Positions 3,670 through 24,449 of a stretch of DNA of 64,000 bases are shown here, in pieces; the stretch's first letter is position 1, and the number at the start of each line of letters is the position of its first letter. The stretch covers positions 1 to 64,000 of the forward strand of contig NZ_JAKFWS010000045.1 in the NCBI RefSeq assembly GCF_021731785.1, read 5' to 3'. Origin of the DNA: Methylocystis sp. (lineage in GTDB: Bacteria; Pseudomonadota; Alphaproteobacteria; Rhizobiales; Beijerinckiaceae). Below the pieces are notes generated by a model. The model did not search any database. It was not told the origin of the DNA and saw only the letters and a list, made by a program, of their open reading frames with translations. A program made the translations under genes and the position numbers.

Positions 3670-6276
3670 ATGAGCGAAGCGGATGAAAAAGTCGCGCCCG
3701 AAAAGCAGACCGACGCTGGCGCGTCGCAGCCGGCCGAGCCAGCTGCGGCCACAGGGCCGGAAACCGCCGCGCCGGTTCCCGAGTCGGTCGCCCTAGACTC
3801 CCCATCGAGCCCGTTCCTGACTGACTCTGCCGCTTCGCGCGCTCCGGCGCCCGCCGAGGAGCCGGCGAAGCCCGCTCAGGCGCCGCTCATCGAGTCAGTC
3901 GCGGTCGCAAGTGCTCATCCGGCCGCTCCGCCAGTTTCCGCCACGGTCGCGCCTCTCTCCGAGCCGCCGGAAGCTCCGGTCGCGCCCGCCGATGAGCCGG
4001 CGAAGCCCGTTCCGGCGCCGTTCGTCGAATCTGTCGCGGTCGCGACTGCTCAGCCGATCGCGCCGCGCAGTTCCGCCGCGGTCGACGCGCCGAAAGCTCC
4101 GGTCGCGCCCGCCGATGAGCCAGCGAAGCCCGTTGCGGCGCCGTTCGTCGAATCTGTCGCCGTCGCGACTGCGCCAAGACCTCAGAGTCCGCCGTCAATT
4201 GCGACGGTCAAAGACCCGTCTGTTGCGTCGTCTTCGCAGAACGCGTCGTCTCTGGCGAAGGCGGCGCGATCGGACGCGCCCGAAGATGGCGCGGTTGGCG
4301 ACAAAATCGTGCAGCGCTCGCGGGCGGCGCCGCCGATCTCTTCATCAACAGCGCCGCGGGCTGTGATCCCGCCGCCACAGCCTGCATCGGAAAGGACCGA
4401 GGCGCCTTCGGTCGGGGCTCCCGAGCCGCGTTCCGCGGCAAAGCCCGACGAAGCCGGGGCGGCCGCCGGGATCTATCGGCGACGCGCTACGTTGCAAGGC
4501 GCCAGGCAGGTCTTGCAGCCGCAGGCGGCGCCCGCTCCGCCGCCAAAAAAGCGCAAGAAGCGTCGCGAGGGCACGCTTTCGATGGCGAGCGGCTTCCTGA
4601 GTTTCATGCTTGTCACATTGGTCGCCGGCGTCTTCGGCCTCATCGCCGCCATGCACAAGTTGAAAGAGCCGGGCCCTCTAGCCGCCGACAAGGTCGTTTA
4701 CATTCCGCCACGCAGCGACCTGCTTGAGATCATTTCCCATCTCGAACGCGAAGGCGTCATCGCCAATCCGGCGCTCATGCAGCTTGGCCTGCTTCTCGAA
4801 GGCAAGCTCGGCAAGCTGAAGCCCGGCGAATATGGATTCAAGAAAAACGCCAGCCTGAACGAAGTGATTGATCAGATCGCTTCCGGCCGCCAGATCCTGC
4901 ACAGCGTCACGATTCCCGAAGGCCTCACCTCGGAACAGATCGTGCAGAAGCTGAAAGAGGCCGACCTGCTGGCGGGCGACGTCGCCGAGCTTCCGAAGGA
5001 AGGCGTTCTGCTTCCCGAAACCTATAAATACCCACGCGGCTATCCGCGGGCGCGCCTTGTCGCCAAGATGCAGGAAGATCAGCGCAAGACGCTTGAAGCG
5101 ATCTGGGCGAAACGCGCGCCGGACCTGCCGTTGCGCACGCCATATGAATTGGTGACGCTGGCGTCGATCGTTGAAAAAGAAACCGGCAAGGTGGAGGAGC
5201 GGCCCCGCGTCGCCGCCGTTTTCGTCAATCGGCTGCGCAAAGGCATGCGCCTTCAGTCTGATCCCACGATCATCTACGGGCTGGTCGGCGGCAAGGCGAC
5301 GCTTGGTCGGCCGATTCTGCGCGCCGAGATCGAAAAATGGACGCCTTACAATACATACGCCATCGACGGTTTGCCGCCGGGACCGATCGCCAACCCCGGC
5401 CGGGCCGCTCTTGAAGCGGCGGCGCATCCGGCGTCGACGCGCGATCTTTATTTTGTCGCTGACGGCACGGGCGGCCACGTCTTCTCCGAATCCCTCGACC
5501 AGCATTCGCGCAACGTCCAGAACTGGCGTCGCCTGGAGAAGGAAAAGAACGAAGACACGCCCGATCACGGCGCGCCCGGAATCCCCGCGCCGGCTGCGCC
5601 CAAGCCAGATAAACGCACCGAGGCGCCCATCGGCCGCCTCGTCACGCTTGCCGAGCGTCACGAAGACTACCCGCCGGGCGCGGCCATGGCCGCTGACGAC
5701 GGCCCGACCCATCGCCTCGGTAAATTCGCATACGCCGAAGCCGATTTCTTCCTCGGCGGCCATGGCGACCGCACCCAGGTTTGTGCGGCGGAATTCGCCC
5801 GTCTCAGGCCGGCGCGGCCATTCTTTACCGAAGACTCCGCGCAGCCGCCCGCCAAGGCCTTGTTCGACGCGTCGCTGTTCGCGCGGCGCCCGCCGCCACC
5901 CGCCGCCGAGGACGGGGAGGAGCGGCTCAATCCGGACATGACGACGGTTGCGCGCCGAAGTTCTGACGCCCAACCTGATGACGGTTCCGAAGCCGCCGCC
6001 TATCCTCTGTCACCCGCGCAGCGCGCCGAGCAGAAAACGCACGCCGCTCGGCTGGGTCTTGCGGCGGGCTCCGACGAACTGCCCGAAGCGCATACCCAAA
6101 GAGCCGCGCAGGACGCGCCGCCGCCTGAAGCCACGGCATTAGCGCCGACTGGCGGTCGGCCCTTTCGTCCGCGCGCTTTCGACGCGTCAGAAGGCACTTC
6201 GCTCGACCCGCTGCGCGACAAGAGCTGGGATCTCACCTCAGCAAAGACGGTCCCTTCGACCGCCGAATTGCGGTAA
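3670..6276 (+). CDS. mltG: Endolytic transglycosylase MltG with long N- and C-terminal extensions
   Basis: MltG cuts nascent glycan strands at the inner membrane and sets the end of peptidoglycan synthesis. At 868 residues this copy is about twice the usual size. Residues 1-305 are Pro/Ala/Val-rich cytoplasmic sequence with three imperfect repeats. A basic stop-transfer (KKRKKRREG) and one membrane helix follow at about 308-328. The YceG/MltG domain covers about 340-645 and contains the conserved EKET motif (Glu502/Glu504) and the RLQSDPTIIYGL segment. Residues 650-868 form a second low-complexity acidic tail. The location after fabF and before yicC and gmk is common in alphaproteobacteria. 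The extensions have no assigned function. Confidence 0.9.
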   Translation: MSEADEKVAPEKQTDAGASQPAEPAAATGPETAAPVPESVALDSPSSPFLTDSAASRAPAPAEEPAKPAQAPLIESVAVASAHPAAPPVSATVAPLSEPPEAPVAPADEPAKPVPAPFVESVAVATAQPIAPRSSAAVDAPKAPVAPADEPAKPVAAPFVESVAVATAPRPQSPPSIATVKDPSVASSSQNASSLAKAARSDAPEDGAVGDKIVQRSRAAPPISSSTAPRAVIPPPQPASERTEAPSVGAPEPRSAAKPDEAGAAAGIYRRRATLQGARQVLQPQAAPAPPPKKRKKRREGTLSMASGFLSFMLVTLVAGVFGLIAAMHKLKEPGPLAADKVVYIPPRSDLLEIISHLEREGVIANPALMQLGLLLEGKLGKLKPGEYGFKKNASLNEVIDQIASGRQILHSVTIPEGLTSEQIVQKLKEADLLAGDVAELPKEGVLLPETYKYPRGYPRARLVAKMQEDQRKTLEAIWAKRAPDLPLRTPYELVTLASIVEKETGKVEERPRVAAVFVNRLRKGMRLQSDPTIIYGLVGGKATLGRPILRAEIEKWTPYNTYAIDGLPPGPIANPGRAALEAAAHPASTRDLYFVADGTGGHVFSESLDQHSRNVQNWRRLEKEKNEDTPDHGAPGIPAPAAPKPDKRTEAPIGRLVTLAERHEDYPPGAAMAADDGPTHRLGKFAYAEADFFLGGHGDRTQVCAAEFARLRPARPFFTEDSAQPPAKALFDASLFARRPPPPAAEDGEERLNPDMTTVARRSSDAQPDDGSEAAAYPLSPAQRAEQKTHAARLGLAAGSDELPEAHTQRAAQDAPPPEATALAPTGGRPFRPRAFDASEGTSLDPLRDKSWDLTSAKTVPSTAELR
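3853..4195 (+). repeat. Three imperfect coding repeats in the MltG N-terminal tail
   Basis: Units starting near 3857, 3988 and 4108 each encode a version of DEPAKPxxAPFVESVAVATA, separated by variable Pro/Ala-rich spacers. The period is about 120-130 bp and always a multiple of three, so the frame is kept. The second and third copies are nearly identical, which points to fairly recent duplication. Confidence 0.8.
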
Positions 6277-7995: not shown

Positions 7996-8355
7996 ATGGC
8001 GCCTATTGCTCTCAAGCGCGTTTGCGAGCAAGCCGAAGCGGAAGACGGAACGCGCGTGCTCATCGATCGGCTCTGGCCACGCGGCTTGCGCAAGGACAAG
8101 GCGGACCTTGATGTCTGGGCGAAGGACGTTGCGCCAAGCGACGCGCTGCGGCGCTGGTTCGACCATAGACCTGAGCGCTGGGAAGAATTCCAGAAGCGTT
8201 ATCGCGCCGAGCTCAGCGCACCCGAGGCGCAGCCGCAGGTCGAGGCGCTTCGCGCAATGACGCGTAAGGGCCACGTTACGTTGCTCTATGCGGCGCGCGA
8301 CGAGTCGATGAACAACGCCGTCGTGCTTCGAGACTATCTGCGCAAGCGTCACTGA
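7996..8355 (+). CDS. DUF488 family protein (YeaO-like)
   Basis: The 119-residue protein carries the family hallmarks [29 protein letters not shown] and [18 protein letters not shown]488 proteins are small cytosolic proteins of unknown biochemical role. The gene starts 31 bp after gmk and its last 7 bp overlap the convergent rsmA gene. No membrane segment or signal peptide is present. Confidence 0.85.
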
Positions 8356-23756: not shown

Positions 23757-24449
23757 TTAACCGCATCCTGTGGCGATCTGATCCCGCCCAAGTGCAGCAC
23801 TGGAGGATATGGTCCAAGTTAGCCCGACCTCCTCGAGTCGTTGCTCAAACCGCGTGCGCGACTCCGGACGGTTGCTGCGAAATTGATAGAAGCAGAACTT
23901 TCGGCCTACAGGTTCATTCTCGATTCGTACAATTCCTCCAGGTCGCACAACTCGCAACATCTCAGACATCATCAGCCACGGCCTGAAGGTGTGATGCACG
24001 CATGACGCACAAAAGACGATGTCAAAGAACCCGTCACAAAATGGCAGTCGGTGAAAATCTCCTGCTATGACTGTCGGTGGACGCAGATCCCGCTTTTGAG
24101 CCTCTTCGGAGCCAAGCCGGAGCGATTTTGGGGAAATATCATGTGCCCAGCCGAGCGCCTCGCCCCCGACAAGCGAACAAGCTAACGCGACATCGAAATG
24201 GGCGTATGCGCCAACCTCGAGAATGCGCAGCGGTCGCCCTCTGGGCGTCAGGTTGTACGTTTCTACGTCTCGGACGATACTACGGTATTATGGCGCAAAC
24301 GCCAATAATACCGCGATACTACGGGCGTGCTGTTCGCTGATCTCGCACAGAGAGTCGCCAAAATGCACAGAGTGCCAAATGATCTCTCCGAGTTGCCGTC
24401 CGTAGATATCGATTATCTTGTCAAGGTCGATGCTGGACATTCGCGGCAT
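23757..24449 (-). pseudogene. Class I SAM methyltransferase gene interrupted by a short palindrome
   Basis: From ATG 24449 (or 24440) the frame reads MPRMSSIDLDKIIDIYGRQ...CEISEQHARSIA, then a 39-bp insertion brings in a TAA stop (24288-24290). Past the insertion the same frame resumes as YRSIVRDVETYNLTPRGRP and continues as a typical methyltransferase: RILEVGAYAHFDVALACSL, the FCDGFFDIVFCASCVHHTF motif and MLRVVRPGGIVRIENEP, stopping at 23757. Removing 39 bp restores one uninterrupted frame of about 217 codons. The 3' part has no usable start except GTG 23999, inside the domain, so the gene is broken. Confidence 0.75.
24275..24324. mobile_element. Short palindromic insertion flanked by 11-bp direct repeats
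   Basis: CGATACTACGG occurs at 24275-24285 and again at 24314-24324. Between and overlapping them is a near-perfect palindrome at 24284-24314: CGGTATTATGGCG, CAAA loop, CGCCAATAATACCG, with one bulged base. It sits in frame in a methyltransferase gene. The layout (palindrome plus flanking duplication) looks like a tiny MITE-like or REP-like insertion with a target-site duplication. A replication-slippage duplication is the alternative. Confidence 0.6.

Follow-up and report, generated by a model that had tools for sequence, protein, structure and literature searches.

A palindrome interrupting a Methylocystis methyltransferase gene is probably the collapsed remnant of an IS1595-family transposon

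Results

An interrupted methyltransferase gene

The window, a stretch of 64,000 nucleotides from the genome of a Methylocystis sp., carries on its minus strand a methyltransferase gene that is split by a short palindrome lying between direct repeats. The features of the locus, in which we call the palindrome the scar, are as follows.

23757–24449, minus strand: methyltransferase gene, interrupted by the scar
24291–24449, minus strand: upstream piece of the gene, 53 residues, no Pfam match
23760–24287, minus strand: downstream piece of the gene, with a Methyltransf_11 domain
24275–24282, no strand: target-site duplication, left copy, 8 bp, CGATACTA
24283–24313, plus strand: scar of 31 bp, read as a collapsed IS1595-family element with both ends abutted
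24283–24304, plus strand: 22 bp equal to the terminal inverted repeat of an intact element found on contig C43 of this genome (4781–4802 and 8144–8165)
24305–24313, minus strand: 9 bp, ATAATACCG, equal to the terminal 9 bp at the other end of that element
24314–24321, no strand: target-site duplication, right copy, 8 bp, CGATACTA
24288–24290, minus strand: in-frame TAA supplied by the scar

The downstream piece is a methyltransferase as judged by Pfam (PF08241, E = 4.3e-15), and a Pfam search with the upstream 53 residues returned no match. The reading frame is identical on the two sides of the scar: translation enters it, stops at the TAA (24290–24288) and resumes in the same frame. A first-pass annotation of this DNA had named the TAA as the sole lesion of the gene, and it is indeed the only in-frame stop ahead of the natural end. 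Because the frame offers no ATG, GTG or TTG between the TAA and position 23999, where the first such codon lies inside the domain, the methyltransferase domain is probably not produced, and we infer that the function of the gene has been lost.

The same annotation had proposed a comparison with the uninterrupted gene in sister strains. No such gene came to light: a close homologue was found neither in 38 sister genomes (best identity 36%) nor, at E 1e-20, in a further 396 genomes from the order, nor in plasmids at 1e-15, nor in viral contigs. As the gene is without a close relative in the genomes searched, the window's own site was found neither empty nor filled elsewhere, which counts against the explanation that we favour below.

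On the plus strand, positions 24275–24321 read CGATACTA, 31 bp, CGATACTA. The spacing of the repeats is 39 bp, in agreement with the 39-bp insert described earlier, and the palindrome (24283–24313) has the 31 bp and the near-perfect symmetry first attributed to it. The 61 bp around it fold with a z-score of −2.76, and 2 of 200 shuffled sequences folded equally well. In sequence the scar is CGGTATTATGGCGCAAACGCCA followed by ATAATACCG, that is, 22 bp from one IS1595-family end and 9 bp from the other. The repeated run measures 11 bp (24275–24285 and 24314–24324) and had been taken for a duplication of that length, a reading that we rule out: the duplication is the 8-bp CGATACTA, to which are added three bases, CGG, common to the element tip and the target, those at 24322–24324 being target DNA whose match to the tip is coincidental.

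A probable parent element in the same genome

When the 201 bp around the site were compared with the genome from which they come, the 22-bp half of the scar was found exactly twice more, at 4781–4802 and, inverted, at 8144–8165 of contig C43. With up to 3 mismatches it occurs at three places in the whole genome, the scar and the two ends of one IS, and a reversed-pattern control gave 0 matches. The element so delimited (L004:4781–8165) is 3,385 bp long, has terminal inverted repeats of 25 bp that are identical at both ends, and is flanked by an 8-bp duplication, GGGCCGCG. The first-pass annotation had suggested a search for further copies of the palindrome: the half recurs, as the ends of one IS; no second scar was found, and the duplication there is 8 bp, not 11.

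The transposase of this element (contig C43, 7040–6033) is an IS1595-type DDE enzyme (NF033547, E = 9.4e-41) that also matches PF12762 and PF12760 in Pfam. Its transposase, its 8-bp duplication and its terminal inverted repeats all place the element in the IS1595 family, the founding paper of which is said to be that of Siguier et al. from 2009, and it may belong to the ISNwi1/ISNha5-like subgroup of transposons with passenger genes. Several further reading frames lie inside it; one matches DUF6471 in Pfam, and the others matched nothing in Pfam, NCBIfam, PHROGs or PADLOC. In its transposase domains, 8-bp duplication, inverted ends and additional frames the parent element resembles IS1595-family transposons of the ISNwi1/ISNha5-like kind, whereas the window retains the collapsed ends alone, with no transposase. 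A passage on ISApl4, another member of the family, likewise reports an 8-bp duplication (PMC12561309).

These matches bear on one alternative, a chance palindrome or a product of local slippage in which no mobile element took part. Palindromes can arise by slippage, and the net length of the insert is a multiple of 3. Against this stand the exact match of 22 bp to each end of an IS that the genome itself carries, with nothing in the reversed-pattern control, and, as described below, duplication-flanked relatives in other genomes and an empty site for one of them; we regard such an origin as extremely improbable. The identity of the IS ends and the 8-bp duplication uphold the earlier proposal that a mobile element with target-site duplication left its footprint here.

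The intact element occupies the 5′ part of dprA, a gene needed for natural transformation, and the DNA_processg_A domain lies in the downstream piece. Whole elements were observed at one dprA position in two species, the window's own (G000) and G032 (contig C28), each with a matching 8-bp duplication. A second such pair consists of whole elements in G020 (L012/L019) and G038 (L017/L023), again two species, which share the duplication GGATAGTC in the same kind of glycosyltransferase gene; the common duplication reflects either a single ancestral insertion or a preference for this target.

Scars at six other sites

We scanned the genome_contigs collection, which by its description holds a single genome for each of 84,980 species, for element ends no more than 30 bp apart. 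The scan gave 24 stretches. Five of these are palindromes of abutted ends with an exact 8-bp duplication on either side, and the viral contigs added one further site.

L059: scar of 40 bp, exact 8-bp duplication, in a Bryobacterales genome
L063: scar of 40 bp, exact 8-bp duplication
L065: scar of 46 bp, exact 8-bp duplication
L070: scar of 40 bp, exact 8-bp duplication, in Methylocystis sp. B8 (coordinates the same as those of the scar of G020)
L076: scar of 43 bp, exact 8-bp duplication, in dprA
L134/L135: scar of 24 bp, duplication CATTTCAG, one site present in two viral contigs

All six other scars, of 24–46 bp, lie between exact 8-bp duplications, and the seven sites including the window show five lengths (24, 31, 40, 43 and 46 bp). 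Eighteen of the 24 stretches were set aside: the second IS end is missing from them, and no direct repeat coincides with their boundaries. It would go too far to deny them any palindrome, since arms of 8 bp are imposed by the search pattern itself and those of L062, among these 18, measure 11 bp. Two further palindromes of the same ends, each of 30 bp and with no duplication of its own, were left out of the count. The first, also one of the 24 stretches (L071:5245–5274, with L114 and L119), lies inside an IS1595 transposase frame and is itself enclosed by an outer duplication, GGACAGTC, which suggests a nested insertion that later collapsed; the second (L136:14163–14192) is in a viral contig and adjoins a frame that by eye resembles the DUF6471 passenger protein. 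The viral contigs gave four stretches in all, namely L133, which is unrelated, L134 and L135, which are one site, and L136. In a scan of the family, 4 of 397 genomes matched, among them G041 and G255, which are without a second IS end.

Within the 39-genome sample of the genus, the end sequence was found in nine genomes at up to 2 mismatches; every two-ended element (7/7) has an 8-bp duplication, and two genomes, the window's own and G020, bear scars. The end matched in 28 of 249 genomes of the family, which hold 15 two-ended elements of 1,115–6,418 bp (counted where both ends fall within 3 mismatches and paired by neighbouring inverted hits alone) besides two scars, one of 31 bp and one of 40 bp, and nothing of intermediate size. 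Shortened derivatives do occur outside that sample. One, in G017 (L011:1501–2311), is 811 bp long with the same ends and a duplication, GATCTTTC; no transposase was recognised in it, the longest of its frames, 235 residues from stop to stop, being without a Pfam match. Another, of 337 bp (L110:2501–2837), on a plasmid of Bradyrhizobium septentrionale, has nearly the same ends, an 8-bp duplication, GTGAAATG, and no annotated gene inside, and a third, of 575 bp (L122), is without a matching duplication.

One of the first readings of the locus had been that the insert looks like the footprint of a very small mobile unit of MITE or REP type. Such a minimal MITE, an end-to-end palindrome of 24–46 bp, would be moved in trans by an IS1595 transposase and inserted directly with an 8-bp duplication. 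The 8-bp duplications at all seven counted sites (L071 and L136, which have none, being set aside), the recurrence of one junction at two unrelated sites and the existence of the 811-bp and 337-bp derivatives with no recognised transposase all speak for it, and the scars do share with MITEs two inverted ends, a target duplication and a lack of coding capacity. MITE- or REP-like sequences, though, are dispersed in multiple copies per genome, whereas one scar per genome, and no second, was found in the window's genome and in the genomes of five of the six other scar sites. The scars differ from MITEs further in having no interior at all and in junctions and lengths that vary from site to site, the arms differing even within the scars of L063 and L076. 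Moreover, a duplex of 31 bp is probably too short and stiff for its ends to be brought together in a DDE transposase. With second copies missing, a tiny mobile palindrome was not our first choice, and we hold it to be improbable. In the Bryobacterales genome that carries L059, no other copy of the end was found at 2 mismatches; a parent element is thus missing from view in some scar genomes, which counts against the explanation we prefer, namely the collapse of a full-length element in place.

Order of events

The evidence on that explanation comes in part from an empty site. In the sister species G030 the L070 site is exactly empty, with a net insert of 48 bp in the scarred genome (40 + 8); among 38 other genomes searched, G030 alone gave an unbroken alignment over the site, whereas in the other matching genomes the two flanks aligned apart. 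The L076 scar occupies the same dprA position as the whole elements of G000 and G032. Both observations agree with a full element having inserted first and lost its interior afterwards, and the dprA coincidence would also fit a shared target preference. In the window and at the six other sites, both element ends lie between intact target duplications. At L063 and L076 the two arms hold different variants, as is expected of the two ends of one longer element. We conclude that insertion of an IS1595 element and its subsequent near-precise internal deletion probably gave rise to the window scar. No intermediate of the deletion was seen, which counts against this explanation.

The junctions fall into two classes. 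In the five scars of 40–46 bp both arms reach 19–25 bp inward from the tip, close to the limit of the inverted repeat (25 bp in G000), and by eye these junctions show no clear microhomology. The two shorter scars, that of the window and the 24-bp scar of the viral contigs, stop inside the repeats. By eye, the junction of the viral-contig scar falls on GCGC, a direct repeat of 4 bp that the two ends have in common, and the window scar joins after CGCC or CGCCA, with one A more than a slip between CGCCA and CGCCA would give. The GCGC junction counts for the favoured explanation, and three features count against it: plain slippage would predict microhomology, of which the longer scars show none that is clear; the window junction has its extra A; and the 21+19 junction of L063 recurs at L070, an unrelated site. 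A hairpin formed by the paired ends, with copying across its base, explains both classes of arm boundary.

A transposase that holds both ends would yield the same arm boundary. The transposase might hold and protect about 20–25 bp at each end while host nucleases and end joining dispose of everything between, which would make the scars by-products of failed excision. This form of collapse agrees with the arms of the five longer scars, which end at the limit of the inverted repeat with no clear microhomology, and with the gap in size between the 15 elements and the two scars of the 249 family genomes; a passage reporting a circular form of ISApl4 adds that IS1595-family elements do leave their site (PMC12561309). 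Pairing and slippage of a hairpin predict that very boundary, however. The 30-bp gap limit of the scar search makes part of the clustering a matter of ascertainment, the count of 15 requires both ends within 3 mismatches, and outside the family sample there are the derivatives of 337, 575 and 811 bp. The 9-bp arm of the window scar and the 24-bp viral-contig scar also lie well inside the boundary. Assistance by the transposase is possible, but we think it unlikely.

Consequences for the interrupted genes

The scars differ in what they do to the frames that hold them. An open DUF72 frame at L063 gains 16 residues from the scar. At L076 the gain is 17 residues, near the N-terminus of dprA, the frame of which, by eye, is apparently shifted further down. 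At L065 the scar puts an in-frame stop into an uncharacterised frame, whose seeming likeness to a methyltransferase found no support in Pfam. Net insert lengths are multiples of 3 at six of the seven sites (39, 48, 48, 54, 48 and 51 bp), the seventh being 32 bp. We make no claim of selection from this, because the window and L065 carry stops and the scars of L059 and L070 seem to fall outside coding sequence or downstream of a stop codon.

Discussion

The sequence of events that best accounts for the window would begin with the insertion of an IS1595-family transposon of the 3.4-kb type into the methyltransferase gene, duplicating the 8-bp target CGATACTA. The whole interior would later have been lost by near-precise excision, leaving 22 bp and 9 bp of the ends joined as a palindrome. 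For this loss the inverted ends probably paired on single-stranded, lagging-strand DNA, with replication jumping across the base of the hairpin. Both the order of these events at the window and the slippage step are our inference from the sequences compared. Of the two origins first proposed for the palindrome, slippage remains the likeliest last step, whereas a MITE- or REP-like footprint gives way to the abutted ends of a 3.4-kb IS1595-family transposon, in a palindrome that is single-copy in its genome.

A close parallel is nearly precise excision of Tn10 in E. coli, in which the interior is lost and a short palindromic remnant of both ends stays behind; that remnant is 50 bp long, and the target duplication is retained. 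For a Tn10-related transposon, a passage on the work of d'Alencon et al. argues for a hairpin formed by the inverted ends and for copy choice during replication (PMC12524634). The scars described here are alike in the loss of the interior and in the short palindrome of both ends between target duplications. They differ in that the element is of the IS1595 family and the genomes are natural, not those of selected revertants, and in that the remnants are of 24–46 bp with variable junctions, the longer ones showing no clear microhomology. Among the matches listed in our literature searches (titles and the starts of abstracts), no report of scars of IS1595 elements was found. A study of IS scars in Thermus differs from ours in that two passages of it are silent on end-to-end palindromes, and its main text contains 0 occurrences of IS1595 or excision (PMC6352166). 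The event is of a known kind, here in an IS family with no such report among the matches listed.

A wider possibility, which we offer only tentatively, is that this branch of IS1595 recurrently collapses to its paired ends, perhaps with help from the transposase, so that, depending on the frame, the host gene is either reopened with an insert of 16–17 residues (DUF72 at L063, dprA at L076) or stopped (the window, L065). Losses of IS elements are usually invisible; scars that keep an 8-bp duplication and readable ends are a natural record of near-precise excision, and their junctions can be compared across species. They also carry a warning: what looks like a very short palindromic ‘repeat’ can be the fossil of a full transposon and not a mobile unit.
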